64,000 nt of DNA, taken from the NCBI RefSeq assembly GCF_900095135.1, contig NZ_LT605205.1:434001-498000 (forward strand). The letters are read 5' to 3'. Positions 45,984 through 63,882 of this stretch are shown here, one piece after another (positions within the stretch are counted from its first letter, which is position 1; the number at the start of each line of letters is the position of its first letter). The DNA is from Proteiniphilum saccharofermentans (lineage in GTDB: Bacteria > Bacteroidota > Bacteroidia > Bacteroidales > Dysgonomonadaceae). A program made the translations under genes and the position numbers. The notes under the pieces were generated by a model that was given only the letters and a program-made list of their open reading frames with translations, was not told the DNA's origin and did not search any database.

Positions 45984-48902
45984 TCATACGGGTGTTGAGC
46001 GTCCTCCGGGTAAACGCCGGTATTGAGAAGGAGTTACATTGGTGTGTTTTTTAAAGATGCGTGAGAAATAAGCGGCATCGTAGAACCCACATTCTGCCGC
46101 TATGTCCGCAATAGATTTATCCTCTGACATTAATTTCTTCTTGGCGTAGTCGACACGTAAATTAGTAATATATATAGATGATGTGTAGCCGGATATGGCA
46201 TTCAGCTTCCGGTTAAGTTGCGACGGGCTTATACACAGTTTTTCTGCAAGTGCTATGGACGAAAAGTCGGGATTATGCATTTCACGGTAAATAATATCTG
46301 TTGTCTTCTGAAGAAATTCCATATTGACATCCTTTACCGGGGGAGTATCTTCTTTGAAGATTGTGCGCATGTATTTTTTCTTGAGCAGGCGCCGGTTTTC
46401 GAGCAACGTTTCAATTTGTACCAGTAATTCATCGGGATGGAACGGTTTTCGTATATATGCATCTGCACCATGCTTCAACCCTTTCAGTTGGTCGTCCATC
46501 CCACTTTTTGCCGTTAGCAGAATTATTGGGATATGATTTAGCAGTTCCGAGTTGCGAATGTCGTTGCAGAATGTCAACCCGTCTTTGTTTGGCATCATGA
46601 TATCCGAAATAATTATATCCGGAACCAGTTCGTTGGACAATTTCAAACCTTCCTCCCCATCCCGGGCCGTTATGGTGTTATATTTGGGCGAAAGCAACGC
46701 TTTTATGTATAGTATCACATCTTCACTATCTTCAATCAGCAGGATCGTCGCGTTCACATCTGTTTTAGGTGATCTTCCCTTTTCGTATGGCCTGACAAAC
46801 CGGCTGTTTCGTTGTGTTATCTTGGTCGCTTCTGTTGGGGAGGGTTGTTGCCTGTCTTCCGGGCTCCATGCCGGCAAAATCCATTCTTCCGATTGTCGTA
46901 ACGGTAATGTTACCGTAAATACGGAACCTTTTTTTTCCTCGCTGTCTACCGTTATTTTTCCGTGCATGATTTCAACCAGTTGACGGGTATAATTTAAACC
47001 GATACCACTTCCTCTTTTTTTATCGGATTGACCGCTCTGATAAAAAAGATCAAAAATCCGCTCTATCTCTTCTTTCGGAATGCCTTTGCCGGTATCGGTA
47101 ACTTTCAGTACGACCTCCTTGTTTTTAACCGTTGAGACCGATACAGAGACCTCATCACCCGGGAGGCTGAATTTCAAAGCATTCGACAATAGATTTTGCA
47201 GGATATCATCGATGTAGTGTGGCACAAAATCCATTTCAATAACCGGTTCGCTACTGGAAAAATATAACCTGATATTGTTGTTTTGCGCGTACAGGCGGAA
47301 CGAATCAACCATCATCTGCACATAAACGGATATATTTCCTCTTTGCCATTCAGGGTTGTCCATACCCGCATTTATTTTTGCCATGTTCAGCAATTGATTT
47401 ACTAATGTAAGCAAGTGTGTGCCCTGTCGGTCTATGGCTTTAAGGTAATAGCTGGACTCGGCGTGAGTGGAATTTTTCTCTTCCTGTAAATGTCTGCTTA
47501 ATCCCAGGATTACGGTGAGTGGCGTGCGGAATTCGTGGGTTATATTTGTGAAAAAATTGGTTCTTAACCGGCTGAGTCTCCGGAGTATCTTGTTGCTTCT
47601 GGTGCGATGTCTGTAAGCATAAAAAAGAGTTGCCGATAAGAGTATGAGGAGGAAGACAATGATAAAAGAAGCCGTGAGGATGATTTTTTTCTGCCGGGTT
47701 TCCATCTCGTTCCGGATGTTCAGTTGGGTAATGTATTGTCTGTTTTTATCACGCTCGTAGTTTACGCGTGTATCGATGATATGATTCAGTTTCTGTGCAT
47801 TACGGACACTGTCTTGATAAGCCTCGCTGAGTTTGTAATTCTTTAGTGCGTCGGCGAAATTGCCCCGCTTTAGGTTATATTGATGCAACAGGTCGTATGT
47901 TTCCGAAAGATGTTGCGGCGATTCGATGTGATTCGCTGCTTCTTTTGCCAGATCAATCTGTTTTTTCGCTGCTGCAAAGTCATTTTTCACCAACCGGATG
48001 CGTGCTATCGCCAGGCAGGCCTCCAGCCAGTGCCATGTGTCAGAAATATTTCCCATGATTTCGTAAGCCTGTTGGTATTCACGTTCCGCTTCATCGTATT
48101 GCTCCTGCAATTCGTGGATATGCCCGAAATGGATATGGCACAACCCGATTCCCAACTGTGATTGGGCAATCTGGTTTTGCTCCATGGAATACTGATAATA
48201 GGTAAAGGCTGAATCATACATCTGTTTTTCCTGGAAAATTACACCGATATTGGCGTAATTCATAGCTTGTCCTACCGGGCTGTTCAACGCTTTTTCTTCT
48301 GCAAGCGCTTCACGGAGCAGCTTTTCGGCTTCATCATAATTGTCGAATGAAAGATAAATGATGCCAATGCCGTTCAACGCCATCACGCGGTTTTTCCTGC
48401 CTTTGTATTCATTTCTTCCGGAATAGGATTCGGCCATTTGCAGTGCCTGGTAATGATACCCGGAGGCTTCCGGGAAGGCACCTATCCGCCGGAAATCAGT
48501 TCCTAAATTATTCAGGGCCTCCGTAATGCCGATGGTGTCTTTTATATTGTAGGCGGCAACCAATCCCTGTTGATGATAAGCGATGGCATTCGAGAAATCG
48601 GACATCTCCCGCATCCGTTTCCCTAATTCCCTGCAGAGGATGGAAATGGCCACTTCGTCCTGAGAAGCAATACTCTGTTCCAGCAATATACGCATAGAGT
48701 CGGTAGGGAAACCCGGTGAGATCTTATCTTCCCATTTTTTCTTGTATTCTTCTGAAAATTGTTGTTTTTTATCGTCTTGTGCGCATGAAAAAGTTAAGAA
48801 CAGGACAAGCAAGATTACACCTGTTTTTAAAAGAGCAGATATCCCGCTGAAAATGCAGACAGCGTATTGACTTGAAAATACTAATTGTAAGCGCATTGCC
48901 AT
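45984..48902 (-). CDS. Hybrid two-component regulator (TPR sensor, kinase, receiver, AraC HTH)
   Basis: The 972-residue protein has an N-terminal lipoprotein-like hydrophobic leader (TFSC near residue 40) and a periplasmic TPR region (about 60-390). One membrane helix (about 404-427) is followed by HisKA with phosphorylated His in TNITHEFRTPL (about 452) and HATPase (GKGIPKEEIERIFDLFYQ). A receiver has its Asp in DIIISDIMMP (about 764), and an AraC-type HTH ends the protein. It joins sensing and DNA binding in one protein. It lies opposite the hmu cluster and may control it, or the small exported protein behind it. Its -7 box is only 12 nt before the ATG, so the message may be almost leaderless. 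Confidence 0.93.
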   Translation of the reverse strand: MAMRLQLVFSSQYAVCIFSGISALLKTGVILLVLFLTFSCAQDDKKQQFSEEYKKKWEDKISPGFPTDSMRILLEQSIASQDEVAISILCRELGKRMREMSDFSNAIAYHQQGLVAAYNIKDTIGITEALNNLGTDFRRIGAFPEASGYHYQALQMAESYSGRNEYKGRKNRVMALNGIGIIYLSFDNYDEAEKLLREALAEEKALNSPVGQAMNYANIGVIFQEKQMYDSAFTYYQYSMEQNQIAQSQLGIGLCHIHFGHIHELQEQYDEAEREYQQAYEIMGNISDTWHWLEACLAIARIRLVKNDFAAAKKQIDLAKEAANHIESPQHLSETYDLLHQYNLKRGNFADALKNYKLSEAYQDSVRNAQKLNHIIDTRVNYERDKNRQYITQLNIRNEMETRQKKIILTASFIIVFLLILLSATLFYAYRHRTRSNKILRRLSRLRTNFFTNITHEFRTPLTVILGLSRHLQEEKNSTHAESSYYLKAIDRQGTHLLTLVNQLLNMAKINAGMDNPEWQRGNISVYVQMMVDSFRLYAQNNNIRLYFSSSEPVIEMDFVPHYIDDILQNLLSNALKFSLPGDEVSVSVSTVKNKEVVLKVTDTGKGIPKEEIERIFDLFYQSGQSDKKRGSGIGLNYTRQLVEIMHGKITVDSEEKKGSVFTVTLPLRQSEEWILPAWSPEDRQQPSPTEATKITQRNSRFVRPYEKGRSPKTDVNATILLIEDSEDVILYIKALLSPKYNTITARDGEEGLKLSNELVPDIIISDIMMPNKDGLTFCNDIRNSELLNHIPIILLTAKSGMDDQLKGLKHGADAYIRKPFHPDELLVQIETLLENRRLLKKKYMRTIFKEDTPPVKDVNMEFLQKTTDIIYREMHNPDFSSIALAEKLCISPSQLNRKLNAISGYTSSIYITNLRVDYAKKKLMSEDKSIADIAAECGFYDAAYFSRIFKKHTNVTPSQYRRLPGGRSTPV

Positions 48903-48943: not shown

Positions 48944-49052
48944 CAAGACCTAAAATTTTAACTAATAAGAGGAAAGAAATGAGCAGGGATATAAATGAAA
49001 TCTATTTTTTATTTTATATACCTATAAGTGGGGATAAAACCTCGCGAATTTC

Positions 49053-49070
49053 ATAATTTTTAGGGATTGT
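49053..49070 (+). promoter_or_regulatory. Shared box upstream of first hmu set
   Basis: ATAATTTTTAGGGATTGT differs at one of 18 positions from the box at 52281-52298. Both boxes overlap the -33 region of the promoter before an hmuY-containing unit. A second similar stretch, TATAAGTGGGGATAAAA, lies at 49023-49039. It is a candidate regulator site. Confidence 0.5.
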
Positions 49071-49097
49071 ATGCTTCTTCTATACCCCTTACTTTTG
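49066..49097 (+). promoter_or_regulatory. Promoter of first hmu set
   Basis: ATTG (49066-49069), a 20-nt spacer and TACTTTTG (49090-49097) fit the Bacteroidota consensus. The leader to the first ATG is about 65 nt. Confidence 0.6.
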
Positions 49098-49166
49098 CAA
49101 TCGTAAGTCAAGACTATAATTTGGCTTAGCTGAACAATTCAAATCACCTGTTAAATTTTTAACAAC

Positions 49167-49622
49167 ATGAAACTAAGAACTCAATTGATTATGTTAGTTG
49201 CCATATTGTGTATGGCATCATGCGAAAAGAACGATGAACCTGAAATCAATCTTGCACAGGATATTGCGGGAGTCTATAATGGACAATTAACACTATCGGT
49301 TGGAAGCACTGCCATGGATCCGGTAGAAAACAGTAAAGTAACCATTAAACATCAGGAAAACGGAAAAGCCGAGGTCACCCTGGCAGGATTTGGCGAGGGG
49401 GCCATGAGCTTTCAGGATATTGTGATAAAGGATGTGGTAGTAACAAAAGGTGGCAATGATACTTATTCCTTAGTTGGGGACATAGATGCGATGAGCGGTA
49501 CGACAAACGTAACCGGCAATGTAGAGGGAACCGTAATAAAAGGCGGTAAAGCCAATATCACATTTACCCTGAAACCCGGTGCCATGCCGATGAGCATTAA
49601 TGCTGTTTTCAACGGACAATAA
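49167..49622 (+). CDS. Calycin-like domain lipoprotein
   Basis: The 151-residue lipoprotein (lipobox MASC at residue 19) has a beta-rich domain starting DIAGVYNGQLTLSVGSTAMD and ending MSINAVFNGQ, as in the Bacteroidota calycin-like family. Calycins are small barrels that hold hydrophobic ligands, including heme or porphyrins in some cases. Being the first gene, 6 nt before hmuY, it is probably an extra surface-exposed ligand-binding component of the heme system. That role is inferred. Confidence 0.72.
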   Translation: MKLRTQLIMLVAILCMASCEKNDEPEINLAQDIAGVYNGQLTLSVGSTAMDPVENSKVTIKHQENGKAEVTLAGFGEGAMSFQDIVIKDVVVTKGGNDTYSLVGDIDAMSGTTNVTGNVEGTVIKGGKANITFTLKPGAMPMSINAVFNGQ

Positions 49623-49628
49623 TGAGAG

Positions 49629-50294
49629 ATGAAACCTGTTATTCTTTTCATCAGACTAATTATGCCGGGAATACTCTTTCTGTCATTCCCGGCATGTAAC
49701 GGTATTTTGGGTAATATCTATGACGAACCGTTAGCCGAAGAAAAGAACGAGTTCGGATTTATCGAAACGGATGAGACAAACAATTCCGGTACCGTTTATA
49801 TAGACGCTACAAGCTATACCAAATGGACGTACATAGATTTTCATACACTTACTGTGGACTCACTTGAAATAAGTGAAGAGATGCAGGAACCCGAAAACTG
49901 GGACATCGCTATCCACCGCTACGACGCCAAAACCAACGGAGCTTTCGTCCTCGAAACGGGATTCACAGGGCTTTCGACGCTTAAAGCCTCAGGAGAGATT
50001 CCCAAAGGCGATTATGTCTCCGATGAGTGGACAACAAACAAAATTGTGGTGGATATGTCGGGGATGATGGATGGGAAACTGAAATATGCCGAATCGTACT
50101 ACAATCGGGAGCTTTCCAAATGGCTGTTTGTGGATACGAGCACCATGCCTCCCGGTTATAATCCCTCGAACAAGGTTTATATTATCAGGTTGAAAGACAA
50201 TACCGTTGTCGCCGTCCGGCTTCGGAACTTTATGAACGCCTCGGGTGTAAAAGGCTATATGACCATAGACTATATTTATCCTTTTGAAGTGTAA
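49629..50294 (+). CDS. hmuY: HmuY-family heme-binding lipoprotein (first copy)
   Basis: The 221-residue protein has a lipoprotein-type leader (FPAC at residue 23). It shares the HmuY fold pattern: VYIDATSYTKWTYIDFHTL, WDIAIHRYDAKTNGAF, and a late KLKYAESYYNRELSKWLFVD. HmuY captures heme outside the cell and passes it to HmuR. It is followed by the receptor after 13 nt. It shows only modest similarity to the second copy (52362), so the two may have different ligands. Confidence 0.85.
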   Translation: MKPVILFIRLIMPGILFLSFPACNGILGNIYDEPLAEEKNEFGFIETDETNNSGTVYIDATSYTKWTYIDFHTLTVDSLEISEEMQEPENWDIAIHRYDAKTNGAFVLETGFTGLSTLKASGEIPKGDYVSDEWTTNKIVVDMSGMMDGKLKYAESYYNRELSKWLFVDTSTMPPGYNPSNKVYIIRLKDNTVVAVRLRNFMNASGVKGYMTIDYIYPFEV

Positions 50295-50307
50295 ATAAAA
50301 CGTTATT

Positions 50308-52239
50308 ATGCAAAAAATATTGGTAACAGTATTTTTACTTACAGGATGCTGTTTCCTTATAAATCCTGTTTCTGCACAATCCATCGATACCCGGACTTAT
50401 TCAGATAGTGCTGCATACGACACGATGCTCGACGAAATAGTAGTTACAGGTACACGCAGCCCTAAAATACTGAAAAATTCACCGGTTATCACCAAAGTAT
50501 TTACTGAAAACGAGATACGAAAAGTGGATGTAACGCATATCGGAGAGTTGCTCCAATCGGAACTTCCGGGTATCGAATTTACTTATTCCATGAACCAGCA
50601 GGTATCGCTCAATATGCAGGGCTTCGGCGGAAATTCCGTCCTTTTTCTTGTAGACGGAGAACGGATTGCGGGTGAAACGTTAGAGAACATAGACTACAGC
50701 CGGCTCAACCTTGATAATGTGCAGCGTATCGAGATCATCAAAGGTGCAGCTTCATCGCTCTACGGATCGAATGCCGTGGGAGGCGTGGTGAACATTATCA
50801 GTAAAATACCTGTGGAACCACTACATGTTAATTTTAACACCCGATTGGCAACGAACAACGAGCAACGACACGGTGGAAGCATAAGTATCAATACAGGTCG
50901 GTTGAGCAGTGCAACCAACGTACAATATGTCTCTGCCGGCGATCTTAAAATGAAAAATGAAGGAGTCTATTCCAAAGTATACGGCAACCGCACGCTGAAT
51001 GTTAAAGAACGGCTGCAATACAATTTAGGGGACAACTTCAAACTTACCGGGCGGGGAGGTTACTTCTTCCGTGAACGCGATTCCCAGGTCAGCAGCAAAG
51101 ACCGTTATCGCAGTTTCAACGGAGGAGCAAAAGGGGAATATGCCTTTCATCAAAAAAGTAATCTGGAGCTGGCATACTCGTTTGACCAATACGATAAGAG
51201 CAGTTTCCTGGTTGAAGACCGCCTCGATGTGCGTAATTACAGCAATGTGCAACACAATTTGAAAGGATTGTATAACTATTCTTTTAATAGCAAAAATATG
51301 CTGACGGTAGGTGGCGACTATATGCGCGATTACCTGATGAGTTACCAGTTCAAGGACAATGCCAGTTACCTGCAGCATGTAGCGGATATTTTTGCCCAAT
51401 ACGACTGGACACCCACTGAAAAACTGAATATAATCAGCGGGTTGCGGTATGACTATTTCTCCGATGCGGATATCAGCCATGTTTCGCCTAAAATCGGATT
51501 GATGTTCAAACAGGGACGCTTTAACTTTCGGAGTTCTTATGCCGGAGGTTTTCGTGCTCCCACTCTCAAGGAAATGTATATGAATTTCGACATGGCAAGT
51601 GTTTTTATGATTTATGGAAATCGGGATTTGAAAGCCGAATCGAGCCATAATTTTTCCCTTTCCGGTGAGTACACCAGCCAGTATTATAATTTTTCGCTGA
51701 CGGGGTATCACAATATTGTGGATAACCGCATCACAACCATATGGAACACGGAATTGAAAGGAATGCAGTACATGAATATTGCCAAAATCAATATTACTGG
51801 CATAGATGCAAACGCATCTGTCCGGTTACCATCCGGTATCGGTGCCCGTCTCTCCTATGCTTTCACTCACGAAAAAATAGAAAAAGGACAGCCTCTGCTG
51901 TCGCAAACCCGCCCTCATGCGGCCACAGCCCGCATAGAATACGGTAAGACATGGAGGAAATACGGTTTTAATATAGCGTTGAACGGACGTCTCCTTTCGA
52001 AGCTCACCACTTATGAATATACGTCGCTCACTTCCTATGAAGAGATGGAGGAGGTTACCTATCCCGGATATACGATCTGGAAACTCAGCCTGATGCAAAC
52101 CTTTCGACAGGGGATTAACCTGATTGTTGGTATCGACAACCTGTTCAATTACGTTCCCGACTACTATTACAGTAATTCCCCATATACGACAGGCACTACA
52201 TTTTCTGCCGGAGTCTCGATAGACATCAGCAGATTTTAA
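50308..52239 (+). CDS. hmuR: HmuR-like TonB-dependent heme receptor (first copy)
   Basis: The 643-residue protein has a signal peptide (residues about 1-25) and a plug domain with DEIVVTGTRSPK, ELPGIEFTYS, LFLVDGERIAGE and GAASSLYGSNAVGGVVNII. A 22-strand barrel ends FSAGVSIDISRF. The heme-receptor FRAP/NPDL pair appears as GGFRAPTLKEMY and GNRDLKAE. The histidine that usually sits between them is not visible; the segment has methionines instead (NFDMASVFMIYG). It lacks the N-terminal CarboxypepD_reg-like domain of the second copy. Confidence 0.88.
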   Translation: MQKILVTVFLLTGCCFLINPVSAQSIDTRTYSDSAAYDTMLDEIVVTGTRSPKILKNSPVITKVFTENEIRKVDVTHIGELLQSELPGIEFTYSMNQQVSLNMQGFGGNSVLFLVDGERIAGETLENIDYSRLNLDNVQRIEIIKGAASSLYGSNAVGGVVNIISKIPVEPLHVNFNTRLATNNEQRHGGSISINTGRLSSATNVQYVSAGDLKMKNEGVYSKVYGNRTLNVKERLQYNLGDNFKLTGRGGYFFRERDSQVSSKDRYRSFNGGAKGEYAFHQKSNLELAYSFDQYDKSSFLVEDRLDVRNYSNVQHNLKGLYNYSFNSKNMLTVGGDYMRDYLMSYQFKDNASYLQHVADIFAQYDWTPTEKLNIISGLRYDYFSDADISHVSPKIGLMFKQGRFNFRSSYAGGFRAPTLKEMYMNFDMASVFMIYGNRDLKAESSHNFSLSGEYTSQYYNFSLTGYHNIVDNRITTIWNTELKGMQYMNIAKINITGIDANASVRLPSGIGARLSYAFTHEKIEKGQPLLSQTRPHAATARIEYGKTWRKYGFNIALNGRLLSKLTTYEYTSLTSYEEMEEVTYPGYTIWKLSLMQTFRQGINLIVGIDNLFNYVPDYYYSNSPYTTGTTFSAGVSIDISRF

Positions 52240-52280
52240 ACAGCAATACCCTAATATTATAATATAAGTTGGAAAAAATG

Positions 52281-52298
52281 ATAATTTATAGGGATTGT
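52281..52298 (+). promoter_or_regulatory. Shared box upstream of second hmu set
   Basis: ATAATTTATAGGGATTGT matches 49053-49070 at 17 of 18 positions. A second similar stretch, TATAAGTTGGAAAAAAT, lies at 52263-52279. Confidence 0.5.
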
Positions 52299-52325
52299 GG
52301 TGGTGGTTAATTGCCAATAACTTTG
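52294..52325 (+). promoter_or_regulatory. Promoter of second hmu set
   Basis: ATTG (52294-52297), a 20-nt spacer and TAACTTTG (52318-52325) fit the consensus, with the same spacing as the first hmu promoter. Confidence 0.6.
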
Positions 52326-52361: not shown

Positions 52362-52967
52362 ATGAAAAAGTTTGGTTTTTTAATGTTGCTCAGCGTCTTA
52401 TTCTTGGCTGCTTGTGATAAGGATGACAAAGAGCCGGCTCTTCCGGGTGAAGTAAAAGATGTGAAATTTGAAGATGTCAGATCATATACCGATTGGAAAT
52501 ATTTCTCTTTCTCGAAAGGAGAGTTTGTTACCGTTACTGATCATCAGAACGATCTGACGTGGGATATTGCTTTCCATCGGGGTGATGTCCGCCTGAATGG
52601 AGGTGCGTCAGGTAAAGGAAAAGGGGAAGCAATCAATACCCAGCAAACAAATTGGAATGCAGTGACGGAAGCACCTGCGAGTGGTTATATAAAAGACCAG
52701 GTCGGAAAGATAACAACTGCATTTACAGGGGATGGTATAACGGAAGAGGATCAACCTTTTTCTCAGACGGTTACAACGTGGCTGACGGTTGATACAAGTA
52801 ACCCGCCTCCCAAATACACCGTTCATAATTGGATCTATGTTGTGAAAGCCGCAGACGGTAACTATGTAAAACTCTGGTTGTATGACAACAAAGATGAGAA
52901 GAATACTGCGGGCTACGTTAGCTTCAGATATCAGTATAATGCAGGCGGAAGCACCAGGTTCAACTAA
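52362..52967 (+). CDS. hmuY: HmuY-family heme-binding lipoprotein (second copy)
   Basis: The 201-residue lipoprotein (lipobox LAAC at residue 18) has VRSYTDWKYFSFSKGEFVTV, WDIAFHRGDVRLNGGASG, VTTWLTVDTSNPPP and VKLWLYDNKD, all HmuY-family features. It has its own promoter. A terminator hairpin (52992-53035) follows before the receptor gene, which would let the hemophore be made in excess over the receptor. Heme ligands cannot be assigned with certainty from sequence alone. Confidence 0.88.
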   Translation: MKKFGFLMLLSVLFLAACDKDDKEPALPGEVKDVKFEDVRSYTDWKYFSFSKGEFVTVTDHQNDLTWDIAFHRGDVRLNGGASGKGKGEAINTQQTNWNAVTEAPASGYIKDQVGKITTAFTGDGITEEDQPFSQTVTTWLTVDTSNPPPKYTVHNWIYVVKAADGNYVKLWLYDNKDEKNTAGYVSFRYQYNAGGSTRFN

Positions 52968-53046: not shown

Positions 53047-55254
53047 ATGAGGATTATACTGTTGGCAATATTCTTTATCACTGGTATTGGGCTTAACGCA
53101 CAGCACCAGCGAATAGAAGGCCGGATTATTGATTGCAGGTCGCAGGAAGGTATACATCTTGTCAGTGTAGGAATACTCGGCACAACCAAAGGGGCTATTT
53201 CCGACGAATCGGGAAAATTCGTTATTGAAGAAGTGGCGGAAGGTGATTATACCTTTGCCGTTTCATCAATCGGTTATGAGGATAAGCGCATACCGGTTTC
53301 CGTTCCCTCAAAAAATGAAAGTCCGATAATCACCATATCGCTGTGCGAACAGACGATTGATCTGGATCAGGTTGTTGTGACGGCAACCCGTACAGAACGG
53401 TTGCTGAAAAATGTTCCTATACAGACTCAGATGATTTCGTCCAAAGCCATTGAACGCATGCAGATAACCAATTTCAGGGATTTACTGGAATACGAACTGC
53501 CCGGGGTAGAGTTTACCAACAATGGCGGTTATGCCAATATCAATATGCTTGGCTTCGGAGGCAAATATGTGTTGTTTCTGGTGGACGGCGAACGTATGGC
53601 GGGCGAAACGTTCGATAATATAGATTATAACCGGGTGGATATGGACAATGTGCAGCAAATCGAGATTGTGAAAGGAGCAGCATCTTCCCTCTACGGCTCC
53701 AATGCTGTGGGAGGAGTGATTAATATTATCACCCAAAAGCCGCGGAAAACATTTGAAACAGGAGCTAATGTAAGATTCGGGAGTAATAACGAACAGAATT
53801 ACCGCTATACCGTAGGCACACGCAGAAAATGGGGATATGCAAACCTGACGGCATCATTCAAATCGATGGATCCCTACTTGCTGAAAGACCGGGAACCTCT
53901 TACTCAATGGTTTGCCAACGGAGATAAAGTGGAATATCCGTTAAGTGAAACTTATATCGCCGGATATAAGGATTACAGTGTTAATCCCCGGGTAGGGATA
54001 GATGTCTCTGAGAAGTTACATTTAGAGACAAAGGGGGGATATTATTTCAAGGAGAGAAATCCCGGAGGTTTGGACGGAACAAAAGTTACCGACCGCTACT
54101 ATAACTATTCGGGCGGATTAAAAGCGGATTACAAAATATCGGATGCTCAGCATTTACAGATTTCCGGGAATTTCGATCGATATGACAAGTTCAAATACTA
54201 CAAATTGTTGAGCGAAAAAGAAAAAACCTATGAAAATTCCCAACAGCGATTCAATGGGATGTATACCCTTTCTTTCGCTGCGGGACACTCGTTGGTAGCC
54301 GGTGCCGAATATTTTTCCGATAATCTGATGACATTTATGTTTGAGAGCGACGGGAGCAATGCGAAGCGTGACGCGCAGACTTATGCCGTTTATACCCAGC
54401 AGGAATGGCTGTTGGCTGAGAAATTTACACTCGTAACCGGTTTGCGTTACGATTATCATTCACAATTTAAGGGTCATCTTACGCCCCGTCTATCGGCGAT
54501 GTTTAAGTTTACTCCCCGGTTCACCGTCCGGGGTGGATATTCAGGCGGTTTCCGTTCGCCCACTCTCAAAGAATTATATACCGATTGGTTCCATCCCGAT
54601 GGTGGGGGATTTCAGATTATCGGTAACAAAGATATGAAGGCAGAGAAAAGTAATAACTTCAACCTCTCGGCCGAACTGTCTCTCGGGAAAACGGTTATCA
54701 CTGCTATGACGCAATATTCCCTTATCGAAGATATGGTAAGTACATTGTGGGCAAACCAGGATACAGTGCTGTATGCCAATATTGGGGATGCCAATGTATG
54801 GAGTACGGAGTTATCGGTTACCAGCCAGATAACCAATAACCTTTCTTTGAAAGTAGCTTCCTCTGTAGTGACCGATAATCTTGGGAAAAGGTCGATTATA
54901 CGTCCTTTTTCGTCAACCGGGCGGATAGACTATATCATTCCTGTTTTCGGGAAATATAATCCTACAATCAGTTTCAGCGGAAAATATTTCGGAGGGATGG
55001 ATATTTACGGAACCGGAGATATTACGGATACTGATAACGAAACGGGGATTGAGAAGGAAGTTTCCGAAGAATACAAGGTGCATTACGACGGATATGCTAT
55101 TTGCTGCTTGTCGTTTGCACAGGCGCTTCCTTTCAACCTGACGTTGAATGCCGGGATAAATAATCTTTTCGATTATAAGCCTAAATTTTCAAGTTTTTAT
55201 TCGAGTATATCGCCCGGAAGAACATATTATATCGGGTTAAAATGGAAGTTATAA
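53047..55254 (+). CDS. hmuR: HmuR-like TonB-dependent heme receptor (second copy)
   Basis: The 735-residue protein has a signal peptide (ending LNAQ) and an N-terminal CarboxypepD_reg-like domain (residues about 22-105). Its plug (ELPGVEFTNNGGY, GAASSLYGSNAVGGVINII) is closely related to that of the first receptor. The FRAP/NPDL region is GGFRSPTLKELY and GNKDMKAE, with a histidine between them (DWFHPDGGG), as in classical heme receptors. A terminator precedes it. hmuS starts 39 nt later. Confidence 0.9.
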   Translation: MRIILLAIFFITGIGLNAQHQRIEGRIIDCRSQEGIHLVSVGILGTTKGAISDESGKFVIEEVAEGDYTFAVSSIGYEDKRIPVSVPSKNESPIITISLCEQTIDLDQVVVTATRTERLLKNVPIQTQMISSKAIERMQITNFRDLLEYELPGVEFTNNGGYANINMLGFGGKYVLFLVDGERMAGETFDNIDYNRVDMDNVQQIEIVKGAASSLYGSNAVGGVINIITQKPRKTFETGANVRFGSNNEQNYRYTVGTRRKWGYANLTASFKSMDPYLLKDREPLTQWFANGDKVEYPLSETYIAGYKDYSVNPRVGIDVSEKLHLETKGGYYFKERNPGGLDGTKVTDRYYNYSGGLKADYKISDAQHLQISGNFDRYDKFKYYKLLSEKEKTYENSQQRFNGMYTLSFAAGHSLVAGAEYFSDNLMTFMFESDGSNAKRDAQTYAVYTQQEWLLAEKFTLVTGLRYDYHSQFKGHLTPRLSAMFKFTPRFTVRGGYSGGFRSPTLKELYTDWFHPDGGGFQIIGNKDMKAEKSNNFNLSAELSLGKTVITAMTQYSLIEDMVSTLWANQDTVLYANIGDANVWSTELSVTSQITNNLSLKVASSVVTDNLGKRSIIRPFSSTGRIDYIIPVFGKYNPTISFSGKYFGGMDIYGTGDITDTDNETGIEKEVSEEYKVHYDGYAICCLSFAQALPFNLTLNAGINNLFDYKPKFSSFYSSISPGRTYYIGLKWKL

Positions 55255-55293: not shown

Positions 55294-58200
55294 ATGAAAA
55301 AGAAATATACGCTCATCGCTTTATGCGCCCTGGTCATTATTGCTGCAGGATGGATAGCCTGGCAGAAAATGGCTGCCCCCACCAGAATCGCCTTGTTTAA
55401 TTTCCAGTCTTTTCAGGTATCGAATATCTCGTTATCGAACGCCGATAAATTTATAAAATTCGAAGAGGTTTCGGTGGAAGAGGTCGGTAAATTGAAAAAT
55501 TATGATTTCGTGCTGGGTTTCGGTATGGGGCTGAAAGTATCGGAAGAGCAGCGTGCACAGATCCAATCGGCAGCAGACAAAGGAACGCCGGTTTATATGT
55601 TTGCCGTAACCAATCCGCAAAATAATATCTGCAACCTGGACAGTACGAATTTAGAGCAGATATCCGGTTATCTTAGCAGCGGTAATAAGGCCAATTACCA
55701 GAATATGGCGCGTTATATACGCCGGAATATCGACAAGAAAATCCTGTTTGCCACCGAGGCAGAGCCTGTAGTGGAAAGTGTGTCTGATGCGTTTTTTCAT
55801 ATCGATGAGAATGTGTCTTTCGAAGAGGTGAATGAATATGAGGCATATCTCAAAAAGCAGGCCTTTTACAAGGACGGAGCCGATAAGGTCGCCATTATAG
55901 CCGGCATTCATGATCCGTTCAGTGGTAATAAAGAACATCTGGACAGCCTGATCATGTCGCTGCAGAATTCGGGATTGAATGTCTACCCCATCTCTTCAAT
56001 GACAAAACGCATGGATTTCCTGGAACAGGTGAATCCCGATGCGGTGGTTTATTTTCCACACGGACGTCTTTTGATGGGACAGCCGGATGCAGCCGTGGAA
56101 TGGTTAAAGAGCCGGAATATTCCTGTTTTTACGCCGATTACTATTCTGCAACTCAAGGAAGACTGGATGAAAGACCCGATGGGAATGTTCGGCGGCTTTA
56201 TGGGACAGACCATTGTTATGCCGGAACTTGACGGCGCCATTTATCCCTATTCATTGGTAGCCCAGGAAAAAAACAATGAGGGTCTGTATGTTTTCAGAAC
56301 AATCCCCGACAGGCTTAAAAGTTTCACGGCGATTGTCAATAACATGATCGCCCTCAAACATAAGAAGAATGCGGAAAAAAAAGTCGCTATCTATTATTTT
56401 AAGGGAGCGGGACAGGAAACATTGGCAGCGCAGGGTCTGGAAACCGTGCCTGCCCTCTATAACCTGTTGAAGCGTTTAAAAGCCGAAGGGTACAAGGTGG
56501 ATAACCTCCCGGCAACCGAAAAAGAGTTCGAGAATCTGTTGATGACACAAGGTTCGGTGTTGAGCACCTATGCCGAAGGAGCATTCGACGAATTTTTAAA
56601 AAAAGGTAATCCGCAACTGGTTAAAAAGCAGGATTACGAAACATGGGTAGGTCAAACCTTATCAAAGGAATCCTATAAAGAAGTGACCGATGTGTACGGC
56701 GAAGCACCGGGAGCCTACATGAGCGTTGTTGAGAATGGAGAAGAATACATTGCCGTGGCTCGCATACAATTGGGAAATGTGGTCTTGTTGCCTCAACCCA
56801 TGGCTGCATTGGGCGATGATGATTTTGCTATCGTTCACGGGGCGAAAATGCCCCCGCCGCACACCTATATCGGCTCTTATTTATGGACTCAGTTCGGGTT
56901 TAAAGCTGATGCCTTGATCCATTTCGGAACACACGGCAGCCTTGAGTTCACACCACAAAAACAGGTGGCGCTGAGCAGTAACGACTGGGGCGACCGTTTA
57001 GTCGGTACCATTCCCCACTTTTACTATTACACTATCGGTAATATCGGTGAAAGCATGATGGCAAAACGGCGTTCGTATGCTACCACCATCTCTTATCTTA
57101 CTCCTGCTTTCACGGAGAGCAATACCCGTTCGCAGTTCAAATCGTTACAGGATAAGATACGGGAATATTATAGAACCGGTGAAGCACAGCAACCCACAGC
57201 ATCGGTAGAGGTTAAAAAGATTGCTGTGGCGATGGGTGTCCACCGCGATTTGCGTCTGGACAGCGTAATTTCCCAGCCATATACCATCGAAGAAATAGAG
57301 AGGATAGAGAACTACGCAGAAGAGATTGCCAATGAAAAGATAAACGGTCAACTTTATATTTCGGGTGAACCCTATACACCCGAAAAAATAAAATCTACCG
57401 TGCTGGCTATGAGCGCCGATCCGATTGCTTACAGCCTCTCCTCTCTCGATAAACAAAGAGGAAAAGTAACCGAAAACCAGTTGAAGAGCAAAACATTCTT
57501 CACACAAGCGTACCTTGATCCGGCAAAAAATCTGGTCAATCAGGTCCTGGCCGGAAAAACCGTCGATGATGAACTCGTATGTGCGGTAGCAGGGATTACC
57601 GCTGCAGAGCTGGGAGAGAGTAAAACTATTCTGAATCCACCCAAAAGAGGTATGGCGGCAATGATGGCGTCAGGCAATGATACTCCGAAAGATGACTCGA
57701 AAAAACCGGAAACAGCTATGCCGAAAGACGGCCCTGCTAAAGCTGAGATGCCGAAACGTCCGGAAGTAGGTGCCACTAAAGACTTATCGGTGACAAAAAG
57801 TGAATCACGTCCGGCTGGAGCGGGTATGCCGGGACAATCCCAAGCGCCTGAATATACTAAAGAACAGAAGGAAAAGGCCCGTATGATTGCCGAGATTGAA
57901 CGTACCATCCGCAACATTCTCCATTATAAATCGGCGTTGGAAGAGAGTCCCGAACTCGAGTTTAAAGCAATGATCAATGCGCTCTCCGGAGGATATGTAG
58001 CGCCTTCTTCGGGCGGTGATGCGGTGGCAAACCCCAACGGGGTTCCCACCGGAAGAAACCTCTACTCGGTAAATGCCGAAGCCACTCCGTCGGAAGTGGC
58101 CTGGGACAGAGGAGTGGGGTTGGTAAAAACCACGCTCGAGCAATATCATAAGGAGCATAGCGAGTATCCGCGTAAGGTGAGTTATACCTTCTGGAGCAGT

Positions 58201-59544
58201 GAGTTTATCGAAAGCGAAGGAACCACCATCGCCCAGGTATTGTACATGCTGGGCGTTGAACCGGTGCGTGATACCTACGGTCGCGTTTCCGAACTCCGGC
58301 TTATACCTGCTGAGGAGTTGGGCCGTCCGCGTATCGATGTGGTCGTACAGACGTCAGGGCAGTTCCGCGATCTGGCCGCATCGCGTCTGATGCTTATTTC
58401 GAGAGCTGTAGAAATGGCTGCGGCGGCAAAAGATGAAAAGTATGAAAACCTCGTGTCGAAAAGTACCGTTGAGATAGAACGCCAGTTGGTTGAACAGGGT
58501 ATATCGCCCAAAGATGCCCGCGTCATGTCTACCCGCCGCGTATTCGGAGGGATCAACGGTATGTATGGTACAGGTATTCAGGAAATGATTACCAGCAGCG
58601 ATAAATGGGAATCGGAAAAAGAAATTGCCGATGCCTATATCAATAATATGGGGGCGGATTATGGAAGCGATAAGAATTGGGGCGAATTCCAGGCAGGACT
58701 TCTCCGTACTGTTCTCAGTAATACGGATGTGATTGTCCAACCACGTCAGAATAATACCTGGGGTGCATTAAGCCTCGACCATGTGTACGAATTTATGGGC
58801 GGGATGAATCTTGCTATCCGCAATGTGACCGGTAAAGACCCTGACGCCTATTTTGCCGATTACCGTAACCGTAATAATGCCAAAATGCAGGATCTGAAAG
58901 AGGCCATCGGTGTTGAATCGCGTGCCACCATACTCAATCCCGAATATATCAAGGAGGTAATGAAAGGTGGCGCGTCGAGCGCTACACAGATTACCGAAGT
59001 GGTGACCAATACCTTCGGATGGAACGTTACTAAACCTAATGTCATCGATAATGAATTATGGGATGAACTCTACGATGTATATGTAAAAGATAAATTCGAT
59101 CTGGGTACGGAAGCGTTTTTCAGGGAAAAAAGCCCGGCTGTATTGCAGGAAGTAACTGCCATTATGATGGAAACCGCACGGAAAGGTATGTGGAAAGCCA
59201 CGCCCGAACAGCTTGCTGATATTGCTAAACTGCATACCGATCTGGTAAAAGAGTTCGGTTCGACCGGCTCGGGTTTTGCCGGAGGAAATACCAAATTGCA
59301 GGATTATATTGCTCAGACTGTAGATCCTTCCGATGCCCAGGTTTACAACAGGCAGATCCGCGCGATGAAAACCCCCGGAGCCGACGCGAGCGTAACCCCG
59401 GCAGGAACAGTCCTCAAAAAACAGGAGGTTGGGCAAATTGAGAACGGTGAAAAGAATTCACTCAACGGAATCATTGTTGCCACGGTAGTACTTCTGGTAT
59501 TTGTCATTCTTTTATTAATTTTGCGGAGGAAAAGGAGGAGCTAA
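55294..59544 (+). CDS. hmuS: HmuS: CobN-like chelatase homologue anchored in the membrane
   Basis: The 1416-residue protein has an N-terminal membrane helix (residues about 5-23), a large CobN/BchH-type region and a C-terminal helix followed by RRKRRS (about 1391-1416). The CobN signature is clear in HFGTHGSLEFTPQK, PHFYYYTIGNIGESMMAKRR and RRVFGGINGMYGTGIQEM. A Pro/Lys-rich linker (about 785-870) interrupts the core. Helix positions put the body in the periplasm, unlike cytoplasmic CobN. The partner ATPases CobS/CobT are absent. In Bacteroidota hmu operons HmuS is thought to act on heme iron; iron removal here is inferred. Confidence 0.9.
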   Translation: MKKKYTLIALCALVIIAAGWIAWQKMAAPTRIALFNFQSFQVSNISLSNADKFIKFEEVSVEEVGKLKNYDFVLGFGMGLKVSEEQRAQIQSAADKGTPVYMFAVTNPQNNICNLDSTNLEQISGYLSSGNKANYQNMARYIRRNIDKKILFATEAEPVVESVSDAFFHIDENVSFEEVNEYEAYLKKQAFYKDGADKVAIIAGIHDPFSGNKEHLDSLIMSLQNSGLNVYPISSMTKRMDFLEQVNPDAVVYFPHGRLLMGQPDAAVEWLKSRNIPVFTPITILQLKEDWMKDPMGMFGGFMGQTIVMPELDGAIYPYSLVAQEKNNEGLYVFRTIPDRLKSFTAIVNNMIALKHKKNAEKKVAIYYFKGAGQETLAAQGLETVPALYNLLKRLKAEGYKVDNLPATEKEFENLLMTQGSVLSTYAEGAFDEFLKKGNPQLVKKQDYETWVGQTLSKESYKEVTDVYGEAPGAYMSVVENGEEYIAVARIQLGNVVLLPQPMAALGDDDFAIVHGAKMPPPHTYIGSYLWTQFGFKADALIHFGTHGSLEFTPQKQVALSSNDWGDRLVGTIPHFYYYTIGNIGESMMAKRRSYATTISYLTPAFTESNTRSQFKSLQDKIREYYRTGEAQQPTASVEVKKIAVAMGVHRDLRLDSVISQPYTIEEIERIENYAEEIANEKINGQLYISGEPYTPEKIKSTVLAMSADPIAYSLSSLDKQRGKVTENQLKSKTFFTQAYLDPAKNLVNQVLAGKTVDDELVCAVAGITAAELGESKTILNPPKRGMAAMMASGNDTPKDDSKKPETAMPKDGPAKAEMPKRPEVGATKDLSVTKSESRPAGAGMPGQSQAPEYTKEQKEKARMIAEIERTIRNILHYKSALEESPELEFKAMINALSGGYVAPSSGGDAVANPNGVPTGRNLYSVNAEATPSEVAWDRGVGLVKTTLEQYHKEHSEYPRKVSYTFWSSEFIESEGTTIAQVLYMLGVEPVRDTYGRVSELRLIPAEELGRPRIDVVVQTSGQFRDLAASRLMLISRAVEMAAAAKDEKYENLVSKSTVEIERQLVEQGISPKDARVMSTRRVFGGINGMYGTGIQEMITSSDKWESEKEIADAYINNMGADYGSDKNWGEFQAGLLRTVLSNTDVIVQPRQNNTWGALSLDHVYEFMGGMNLAIRNVTGKDPDAYFADYRNRNNAKMQDLKEAIGVESRATILNPEYIKEVMKGGASSATQITEVVTNTFGWNVTKPNVIDNELWDELYDVYVKDKFDLGTEAFFREKSPAVLQEVTAIMMETARKGMWKATPEQLADIAKLHTDLVKEFGSTGSGFAGGNTKLQDYIAQTVDPSDAQVYNRQIRAMKTPGADASVTPAGTVLKKQEVGQIENGEKNSLNGIIVATVVLLVFVILLLILRRKRRS

Positions 59545-61259: not shown

Positions 61260-61412
61260 AACGTCTTTATTTATTTAGCTTAACAAAAACGCTTACTCAA
61301 TCAATCTCTGTTGTTACTATAATAGGGTTATTTGCCTATGTTCTACCTGCAAATTCTATCATTTGTGGGTATATATGGTTATTTTCTACCGGAAAAATAC
61401 TCATTTCTTGCA

Positions 61413-61444
61413 ATTGATGCCTTATGTTATTGCCTATATCTTTG
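61413..61444 (+). promoter_or_regulatory. Promoter of third TonB-dependent receptor
   Basis: ATTG (61413-61416), a 20-nt spacer and TATCTTTG (61437-61444) fit the consensus. The receptor starts 36 nt after the -7 box, so the leader is short. Confidence 0.6.
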
Positions 61445-61445
61445 T

Positions 61446-61459
61446 CCTAAAATTTTAGG
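61446..61459. promoter_or_regulatory. Perfect palindrome at third receptor promoter (possible operator)
   Basis: CCTAAAATTTTAGG is a perfect 14-bp palindrome beginning 2 nt after the -7 box, where a bound repressor would block transcription. Its half-site TTTTAGG is shared with the box before the first hmu set. Confidence 0.5.
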
Positions 61460-61479: not shown

Positions 61480-63882
61480 ATGAATCAATTAAAGAGTCTT
61501 TATGTAAGGCTGACCGGGATAATCGTTTTCATTTTCTTTTTTCATTCTTTATTTGCACAACAAGACCGCCAGGCCGTTATTCGGGGAAGCGTAAAGGATA
61601 GTAAAGGTGATCCGGTAGAGTTTGCTACCGTCTACATAAAAGAAACCCAGCAGGGTACACAATCGGACATTAAGGGAGATTTCCTTTTGCAGGTTGCGCC
61701 GGGGAGTTACACGTTTTGTGTGCAAATGATGGGGTACGAAACACATGAACAACCCATCACCGTGCAACCGGGCGGGAGAATGACGATTTCGGTAGAGTTG
61801 GCTGAGAAGAGATATGCACTCCAGGAGGTGGTGATAGAAGCCAAATCTTCCGTACAACGCATTAATGAGTCGGCATACAATGCCGTAGCGCTGGATGCCA
61901 CGGTACAACATAATTTAACGACTAATCTGTCGGGCATGCTCAATAAGGTGTCTGGTGTCAGGATCCGCGAAACCGGTGGGGTAGGATCTGAAATGCAGGT
62001 TATGATGGACGGCTTCAGTGGGAAACATGTGAAAGTCTTTATCGACGGCGTTCCTCAGGAAGGTGTGGGAGCATCGTTCGGATTGAATAATATCCCTGTA
62101 AACTATGCCGAGCGTATAGAGGTATACAAGGGGGTAGTACCCGTAGAGTTTGGAACCGATGCCATTGGCGGCGTAATCAATATTGTGACCAGGAAAGGTT
62201 TTAATAGGAAATGGCATCTCGATGCCTCCTATTCGTATGGTTCGTTCAATACCCATAAGTCTTACTTCAATTTCGGACAAACATTTGATAACGGACTGAC
62301 TTATGAGGTAAATGCGTTTCAAAACTATTCCGATAATAATTACTATGTGGATACGCCGGTAAAAGAGTTTTTGCCAGACGGAGGTAGTAGTACCGACAGG
62401 TCAAAGATTGAGCATGTAAAACGGTTCCATGATACTTTTCATAATGAAGCGATATCAGGAAAAGTCGGTCTGGTAGATAAACCGTGGGCAGACCGGTTGA
62501 TATTTGGGGTCACTTATTCACAGGTATATAAAGAGTTGCAGACAGGCGTACGCCAGGAGATCGTTTTTGGTGGCAAATACCGCAAGGGCCATTCTGTGAT
62601 GCCGTCGCTCGAATACCGCAAACGGAATATGTTTGTGGATGGGTTGGATGTGACGCTAACGGCCAACTACAATAAAAACAATACGCATAATGTAGATACC
62701 TCCTCTTATGAATTTAACTGGCGGGGAGAAAAACGTCTGCGGACCGGTACGCCCGGGGAGCAGTCATACATGCATCTACGATCAGACAATAATAACTGGA
62801 ATGGAACGGTTTCTGCCCGTTACCGGTTAAAGGATATCCATTCGTTTACATTCAACCATATTATCAACTCCTTCAGGCGTTCCAACAGGTCGCTTCTGAC
62901 ACCCGGATCCGGCCCTGACCCGATACCCAAAGAAACGCAGAAGAATGTCAGCGGTCTCTCTTACCAGCTTATGCCCAACGATAGATGGAATGCATCGCTC
63001 TTCGGTAAATATTACTATCAGTATGTGGCAGGCCCGATAGCTACCTCCTCTTCACTTGATGAAATTGTACGGGCCACTAAAACCATCAGCACTACCGGTT
63101 ATGGTGCGGCCGGGACCTATTTTATCATGGATAATTTACAGGCCAAGATATCTTATGAGAAGGTGTACCGCCTGCCTACCAATAATGAAATGTTTGGCGA
63201 TGAAGACCTGGAAACCGGAGATATAGCGATCAAGCCCGAGAACAGCCATAATATCAACTTCAATGTGAGTCTTGATGAGTCATTTGATAAACATGCCATT
63301 TACCTGGAGGGGGGATTGATTTACCGTGATATAAAGGATTATATCCAGCGTAATATCACGGGACTGGGCGGTGGACGCTATGGTGCTGCCTATGTCAACC
63401 ACGGTAAAGTGCTTACGAAAGGGTATACCCTTACTGCGCGCTACAATTTTTCAAATCTGTTGAGCGTGGGAGGAAACTTCACCGAAATCAATACACGCGA
63501 TAATGTAGCGACAACCATTACCGGCTCACCCAGTAATACTTATAAAGCCCGTATGCCCAATGTCCCTTATCTTTTTGCTAATGCGGATATTACTTTTTAC
63601 CGTCACGACCTGGGTGCGAAAGGGAATGTGCTGACGGTTTCTTACGATAATTTCTATGTAAAGAGTTTTCCCCTCTATTCGGAGGCACTGGGCAGTAGCG
63701 AGAGTAAATCAGTTGTACCTACTCAGTTCTCCCATAATGTGAGTGTCTCCTACTCTCTGAAAGAGGGGCGTTACAATATCTCATTCGAGTGTCAGAATCT
63801 TACTGATGAAAAGTTGTATGATAACTTTAGCTTGCAAAAGGCGGGCAGGGCATTCTACGGTAAACTGAGGGTTTCTCTGTAA
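61480..63882 (+). CDS. TonB-dependent receptor with carboxypeptidase-like N-terminal domain
   Basis: The 800-residue protein has a signal peptide (ending SLFAQ) and a CarboxypepD_reg-like domain (about 30-115; GDPVEFATVYIKETQQGTQ). A plug (VSGVRIRETGGVGSEMQVMM, GVVPVEFGTDAIGGVINIV) is followed by a barrel ending GKLRVSL. It lacks the close plug similarity that the two HmuR proteins share, and its heme motif is not visible. It may take up another iron chelate. It has its own promoter and operator-like palindrome and is followed by a further gene. Confidence 0.88.
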   Translation: MNQLKSLYVRLTGIIVFIFFFHSLFAQQDRQAVIRGSVKDSKGDPVEFATVYIKETQQGTQSDIKGDFLLQVAPGSYTFCVQMMGYETHEQPITVQPGGRMTISVELAEKRYALQEVVIEAKSSVQRINESAYNAVALDATVQHNLTTNLSGMLNKVSGVRIRETGGVGSEMQVMMDGFSGKHVKVFIDGVPQEGVGASFGLNNIPVNYAERIEVYKGVVPVEFGTDAIGGVINIVTRKGFNRKWHLDASYSYGSFNTHKSYFNFGQTFDNGLTYEVNAFQNYSDNNYYVDTPVKEFLPDGGSSTDRSKIEHVKRFHDTFHNEAISGKVGLVDKPWADRLIFGVTYSQVYKELQTGVRQEIVFGGKYRKGHSVMPSLEYRKRNMFVDGLDVTLTANYNKNNTHNVDTSSYEFNWRGEKRLRTGTPGEQSYMHLRSDNNNWNGTVSARYRLKDIHSFTFNHIINSFRRSNRSLLTPGSGPDPIPKETQKNVSGLSYQLMPNDRWNASLFGKYYYQYVAGPIATSSSLDEIVRATKTISTTGYGAAGTYFIMDNLQAKISYEKVYRLPTNNEMFGDEDLETGDIAIKPENSHNINFNVSLDESFDKHAIYLEGGLIYRDIKDYIQRNITGLGGGRYGAAYVNHGKVLTKGYTLTARYNFSNLLSVGGNFTEINTRDNVATTITGSPSNTYKARMPNVPYLFANADITFYRHDLGAKGNVLTVSYDNFYVKSFPLYSEALGSSESKSVVPTQFSHNVSVSYSLKEGRYNISFECQNLTDEKLYDNFSLQKAGRAFYGKLRVSL

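Follow-up and report, generated by a model that had tools for sequence, protein, structure and literature searches.

Genes and promoters of the hmu locus

In this study, we analyzed a promoter element that recurs at the hmu locus of Proteiniphilum saccharofermentans, both within a window of 64,000 nucleotides (NZ_LT605205.1, positions 434,001-498,000) and in related genomes. G numbers denote the genomes compared, with G000 as the source genome (4.41 Mb), and L numbers denote loci taken from those genomes. Three predicted promoters are referred to as P1, P2 and P3; they precede the Calycin_like-hmuY1-hmuR1 operon, the hmuY2 operon and a TonB-dependent receptor gene at 61480, respectively. Genes and promoter elements of the locus, in window coordinates, are the following (HTH, helix-turn-helix).

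45984-48902, reverse strand: divergent hybrid two-component regulator (TPR, HisKA, REC and AraC HTH domains), rejected as regulator of the element
49018-49035, forward strand: P1 upper dyad, ATACCTATAAGTGGGGAT, centre 49026.5, conserved in orthologous promoters
49050-49067, forward strand: P1 lower dyad, TTCATAATTTTTAGGGAT, holding most of the box at 49053-49070
49066-49097, forward strand: P1 core promoter, with -33 ATTG at 49066-49069 and -7 element TACTTTTG at 49090-49097
49167-49622, forward strand: Calycin_like lipoprotein gene, first behind P1 (PF13944)
49629-50294, forward strand: hmuY1 (PF14064)
50308-52239, forward strand: hmuR1, TonB-dependent receptor (PF00593, PF07715)
52246-52263, forward strand: P2 upper dyad, ATACCCTAATATTATAAT, right arm degenerate
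52278-52295, forward strand: P2 lower dyad, ATGATAATTTATAGGGAT, holding most of the box at 52281-52298
52294-52325, forward strand: P2 core promoter, with -33 ATTG at 52294-52297 and -7 element TAACTTTG at 52318-52325
52362-52967, forward strand: hmuY2, first behind P2 (PF14064)
53047-55254, forward strand: hmuR2, TonB-dependent receptor
55294-59544, forward strand: CobN/Mg-chelatase-like gene, hmuS type (PF02514)
61362-61446, forward strand: P3, third and weaker occurrence of the two-dyad element, ahead of the TonB-receptor gene that starts at 61480
61480-63882, forward strand: TonB-dependent receptor gene behind P3

The sequence-only reading of this DNA had pointed to two nearly identical boxes, placed alike with respect to their promoters. 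Both boxes are indeed present, ATAATTTTTAGGGATTGT at 49053-49070 and ATAATTTATAGGGATTGT at 52281-52298, with 17 of 18 bases identical, and each ends in the ATTG of its -33 element, which is followed by 20 base pairs (bp) and TAnnTTTG. Promoters of the Bacteroides type have TTG at -33 and TAnnTTTG at -7, and P1, P2 and P3 all have this form. The same reading had each promoter drive an hmuY gene. This applies to P2, where hmuY2 comes first, and has to be amended for P1, where the Calycin_like gene comes first and hmuY1 second.

With up to three mismatches allowed, the box matched the window only twice; 100 shuffles gave a mean of 0.31 matches, and at least two matches were reached in six of them. 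Taken by itself, then, the box is just slightly unusual and constitutes weak evidence. A search of the whole genome (4.41 Mb), as had been proposed, returned 23 matches at this tolerance (two without mismatch, none with one, two with two and 19 with three) versus five for a reversed control pattern. Only the P1 and P2 boxes had fewer than two mismatches. When the 20-bp spacer was included, 66 matches with at most two mismatches were detected in six genomes, versus 14 for the reversed control.

Architecture of the two-dyad element

The boxes are part of a larger element composed of two 18-bp dyads (ideal form ATCCCTATAAATAGGGAT), followed by 20 bp and TAnnTTTG. In P1, P2 and P3 alike, 32 bp separate the two dyad centres. 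A second motif upstream of each box had been thought to lie at different spacing; instead, the partner dyads start at 49018 and 52246, exactly 32 bp upstream in both promoters. Because the centres keep this distance, the reported box is essentially the lower dyad, and its upper partner is equally distant in both promoters. A direct-repeat reading (GGGAT repeated at 32 or 21 bp) was replaced by the two-dyad reading after alignment of orthologues. The dyad, two heptamers with a 2-bp gap, resembles the 7-2-7 site of NarL.

The box was also looked for near hmuY genes of relatives, and 12 hmu promoters from seven genomes could be aligned over 85 columns without gaps, the 32-bp dyad distance being identical in all 12. 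Conserved blocks of this alignment were columns 4-21, columns 36-55 and the -7 element. Pairwise identity was 0.66 and 0.85 in the dyad blocks and 0.83 in the -7 element, compared to 0.42 and 0.38 in the spacers. In addition, a bipartite pattern was searched in 101 genomes: nine of the 11 matches were hmu promoters, the other two were located in or at starts of open reading frames (ORFs), and the reversed control gave none. As this pattern was written from the same hmu promoters, the result speaks for specificity and not for discovery.

Two sequence models were used. R1 was built from the 12 hmu promoters only (one of which is a duplicate in G021) and run over 10 genomes. Forty-two R1 matches, chosen by orientation and after removal of overlapping loci, were tabulated from 82 rows; eight were dropped for shifted, partial or poor register (L312, L315, L227, L308, L232, L231, L224 and L309), and of the 34 kept, L216:4556-4640 failed the register test. 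R2 was built from 40 sites (set A2), outside which also remained L216:8476, L305:11705, window:61362 and two G021 hmu copies. It was run over 393 genomes of Bacteroidales with a site threshold of E<=1e-3, and stricter filters in this order-wide run make its site counts lower bounds.

Dyad symmetry was scored in 20 of 28 order-wide R2 loci, which had no indel or near-duplicate and were held out from training. The two blocks contained on average 4.9 and 4.65 complementary pairs of nine, as against 2.5 for random sequence with matching composition and 1.5-3.2 with the dyad frame slid by 1-3 bases. The corresponding values within the window were 5 and 3 for P1, 3 and 4 for P2, and 4 and 3 for P3. 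P3 was scored by R1 at E=0.18 per genome (61373-61445, contig position 495373) and by R2, with the site outside its training set, at E=5.1e-7 per genome; under R1, the orthologous places of P3 had E=0.004 in G021 and E=0.03 in G007.

In G021 (P. acetatigenes), an insertion between hmuR1 and hmuY2 brings a duplicated P2 (L099:14714-14798), and the gene behind this copy resembles, by eye, a cation-diffusion efflux gene. Such a clearly duplicated third copy is what could be expected if the boxes were alike through promoter duplication alone and had no regulatory role. However, the spacers of P1 and P2 differ while both dyads and all distances are kept, and the element occurs before unrelated genes in distant families; we consider this explanation very improbable.

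The divergent hybrid two-component gene varies independently of hmu, being present without hmu in G010 and absent with hmu in G007 and G012. Its product could bind the boxes via the AraC HTH, and it adjoins P1 in the source genome and in G021. Nevertheless, the hmu loci of G007 and G012 keep both boxes without this gene, beside an epimerase/comEC/recJ cluster. G007 has a broken homologue (60-66%) elsewhere and none at the hmu locus, and the best homologue in G012 is 44% identical in the C-terminal part only. In G010 the gene (93% identical) occupies the same place without hmu, and R1 gave just a faint signal of the element there (E=0.02). As a general regulator of the boxes it is refuted by G012, and its involvement seems scarcely credible. 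Likewise rejected was the ribulose-phosphate epimerase that adjoins hmu in these two genomes (G007 and G012), being a metabolic enzyme and not a regulator.

Further sites and the predicted regulon

Outside its training set, R1 detected a site in G049 (E=7.5e-6) with 43 bp between its end and an HmuY gene downstream, and the identity of this HmuY was confirmed. The strongest non-hmu site of the source genome (1878782, E=3.7e-7) precedes a gene for a protein with Hemerythrin, PAS and DUF1858 domains. This protein (L299:3910-5607) is a possible sensor itself. Further R1 sites in the source genome were found before genes for an LCM-type methyltransferase (2463475, E=2.7e-4) and a flavodoxin (1446873, E=0.022), a gene without Pfam match (2459556, E=8e-4), an ABC exporter operon (2475249, E=9e-4), an ORF with a TonB-receptor plug domain (3242301, E=0.0015) and a small ORF (2249060, E=0.004). 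Sites in other genomes were located before flavodoxin, PepSY_TM, TonB-receptor and ferric-reductase-like genes and ABC exporters.

At the level of the order, R2 identified at least one site in 178 of 393 genomes, distributed over 111 of 207 genera. Of 28 R2 loci from genomes not used for training, 25 of them belonging to other families, 26 had an ORF start in the same orientation within 300 bp downstream, although L333 is doubtful among these. The first genes in the 28 loci included flavodoxin in four (L317, L324, L325 and L336), PepSY_TM in three (all from the family of the source genome), HmuY in one (L340), and TonB receptor, OprB porin and MMPL transporter genes. In L332, a second site on the opposite strand precedes a Hemerythrin-domain gene followed by a LuxR-type gene.

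Low iron is reported to raise hmu, flavodoxin, PepSY-like and ABC-transporter loci in Porphyromonas gingivalis, Prevotella intermedia or Bacteroides thetaiotaomicron (PMC10434189). Sites were found before hmu, TonB-receptor, flavodoxin, HmuY, PepSY and ABC exporter genes, and the whole is therefore read as an iron-starvation regulon. DUF6686 genes stand behind the element in two distant families (L220:7343-7684 and L336:116-451), which suggests a role of these genes in iron starvation.

A DtxR/MntR operator was considered and rejected: the region from a FeoA/DtxR-like gene to a soluble DtxR-type gene (L216:15905-16008), close to the ABC exporter operon found as a target, has a different dyad, TTTAGACTAATCTAA, and R1 gave no match over this feoB / DtxR-type intergenic region. 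The surrounding locus (L216:12622-16719; G000:C1, about 2.467-2.472 Mb) contains feoB with an ORF of 350 amino acids (aa), divergent from a soluble DtxR-FeoA protein, the TTTAGACTAATCTAA dyad lying between them. In the 350-aa ORF, an N-terminal membrane-like segment is joined to DtxR-type metal-binding and FeoA domains.

A hemerythrin-LuxR protein as candidate regulator

The regulator is most likely a hemerythrin-LuxR system, of the family of P. gingivalis CdhR. The source genome encodes, about 1.2 Mb away, a fused protein of 290 aa with a hemerythrin-like module and a LuxR HTH (G000:C1:1684551-1685423; L296:4552-5424). It matches GerE with E=3.9e-16, and its residues 4-148 match ScdA by sequence with E=2e-4. 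The gene immediately before it (L296:4211-4552) is of the YgbA_NO type ("nitrous oxide-stimulated promoter"), a hint of a link to nitric oxide (NO). An AlphaFold model of the hemerythrin-LuxR protein based on 33 sequences had a mean predicted local distance difference test score (pLDDT) of 84.4 (64.8 with five sequences). In this model, the predicted helical bundle aligns to YtfE and ScdA with Z of about 11, a value to be read with caution as bundles score high, and the predicted HTH aligns to LiaR, VraR and NarL; a Foldseek search with the whole model gave no match at E<=0.001. By alignment, the C-terminal HTH is thus like that of NarL/LiaR/VraR-type (GerE) regulators, whereas a hemerythrin-like module takes the place of their receiver domain. 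The N-terminal module is like YtfE/ScdA (RIC) proteins, from which the candidate differs in that its module comes with a DNA-binding protein, as a fusion or as a partner, and that iron ligands are partly lost in many members.

A profile search detected the hemerythrin module in 264 of 393 genomes. It was present in 165 of 178 genomes with sites versus 99 of 215 without, and in all 54 genomes with three or more sites. The genus counts, which combine automatic tallies with manual inspection of those 13 genomes in which sites but no module were detected, were 106 of 111 with sites versus 44 of 96 without. In the 30 top-scoring module loci, the module was fused to LuxR in seven and followed by a LuxR gene in 23 (30/30 together). 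A site was located beside these genes in nine of the 30 loci (search space of 109 kb): seven loci had it just upstream in the same orientation (E from 3e-5 to 0.018), and three, including one of these seven, had it directly past the LuxR gene. G220, which was outside the top 30, also has a site upstream of its hemerythrin-LuxR genes.

The same arrangement is described for CdhR (PG1237) and PG1236 of P. gingivalis and for BT0519-0520 of B. thetaiotaomicron, a hemerythrin protein and a LuxR-type regulator being adjacent or fused (fused in P. intermedia); its occurrence in 30 of 30 loci here is a likeness to published descriptions, not to the P. gingivalis or B. thetaiotaomicron sequences. CdhR, the LuxR-type partner of the hemerythrin protein, is an activator of hmuYR according to later papers (PMC9666725, PMC10101095), and the hemerythrin-LuxR pair is among iron-regulated loci (PMC10434189). 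Architecture and conservation of the element, its target gene classes, and its co-occurrence and physical linkage with hemerythrin-LuxR genes are established by our computations. Of the earlier proposal of a shared activator or repressor for heme or iron status, the part on a shared regulator linked to heme and iron is well supported by conservation across species, by iron-starvation target genes and by co-occurrence and linkage with a single regulator system; the response to heme or iron is deduced from expression of these gene classes published for relatives. We assign a probability of about 0.7 to the reading in which a two-dyad operator, with the box as its lower half, marks a Bacteroidales iron-starvation regulon and has hemerythrin-LuxR (CdhR family) as its most likely regulator.

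Other hmu regulators have been reported in P. gingivalis. HaeSR and Har/PgFur likewise regulate hmu or heme-related genes (PMC3764172, PMC4222909), and chromatin immunoprecipitation sequencing is reported to place HaeR upstream of hmuS, not hmuY; in the available parts of the literature on HaeSR and Har/PgFur, no two-dyad element is reported. The operator might be read by a Fur-family protein (e.g., Har/PgFur) or another global iron regulator, with hemerythrin-LuxR genes as mere targets, and hmuY expression is altered in a P. gingivalis har mutant (PMC4222909). The content of the regulon is that of a classical iron regulon, and sites at hemerythrin-LuxR operons are expected of targets. However, sites follow the hemerythrin module across the 393 genomes, the 7-2-7 form resembles NarL/LuxR half-sites, and the dyad is unlike a Fur box by eye (no Fur profile search was made). 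A Fur-type reader is quite improbable on balance.

Several observations weigh against the hemerythrin-LuxR assignment. The p-values for co-occurrence (Fisher p=6e-25 for genomes and p=1e-16 for genera) reflect in part shared ancestry and genome completeness, with no control gene (e.g., Fur) profiled alongside. Thirteen of the 178 genomes with sites have no detected module, none of the 13 having more than two sites, and in the source genome no site lies near the hemerythrin-LuxR gene. In many members the hemerythrin-like module lacks part of its metal ligands (among 30 members, H185 is present in 28, H158 in 18 and H100 in 19, other ligands being variable). Finally, there are PAS-LuxR paralogues. 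A two-dyad site separates one of them (L297:3387-4327, G156) from a divergent TonB receptor gene, and the operator may be shared between these paralogues and hemerythrin-LuxR. The G156 arrangement would also fit an operator read by a different LuxR-type protein, such as these paralogues, or by several. Yet it is the hemerythrin-LuxR fusion or pair that is found repeatedly next to sites, in several families, and a GerE protein of about 289-310 aa was found in each of the 16 genomes for which GerE proteins were listed, which leaves a different LuxR-type reader rather improbable.

As to how a hemerythrin-LuxR protein would act, we infer that it binds the operator, that it activates and does not repress, and that it senses iron (or NO or oxygen). 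Each of the two dyads, which are close to TMCCTAT-NN-ATAGGKA and have centres separated by 32 bp (three helical turns), would be occupied by one dimer of a LuxR/NarL-type (GerE) protein. With these centres at about -43 and -75 (estimated from the -7 element), the simplest mechanism would place both dimers on the same helix face and let the lower one contact RNA polymerase. The lower dimer would touch the -33 region and activate a housekeeping-type promoter, and the hemerythrin-like module would serve as the sensor. Conversely, the regulator could be a repressor that blocks the promoter by binding over -33 when iron is plentiful, as the lower dyad overlaps the -33 ATTG. Repression is kept as a rival because CdhR is reported to repress other genes, mfa1 and luxS (PMC4082711). 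It is unlikely nonetheless: both dyads lie upstream of the core promoter at a fixed spacing of 32 bp, as with tandem activators, and the papers on hmuYR cited above (PMC9666725, PMC10101095) report CdhR as its activator.

LuxR-type activation and CdhR are already known, whereas the operator, the order-wide regulon and the link to hemerythrin-LuxR genes seem not to have been described before. The available parts of the CdhR literature contained neither an operator sequence nor an order-wide regulon, nor was this operator or regulon found in the literature searched by title and abstract opening, a search outside which most subscription papers fell.

The iron stimulon of Bacteroidetes has been defined in three species, its regulatory mechanisms being scarcely known and the mechanism of CdhR unclear (PMC10434189). 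A precise operator with fixed geometry, a set of target classes and one candidate regulator make the question of this regulation accessible to direct experiment. We think the chances slightly better than even that one master activator of the iron-starvation response is common to Bacteroidales. In it, a hemerythrin-like sensor would bring a LuxR-type HTH to a rigid operator of two dyads (32 bp apart, abutting -33). The activator would control genes for heme uptake, flavodoxin, PepSY and export, in many cases together with its own operon, and the main response would thus operate via an activator and not via a Fur repressor. Bacteroides is a dominant gut genus, and its iron response matters in inflammation.

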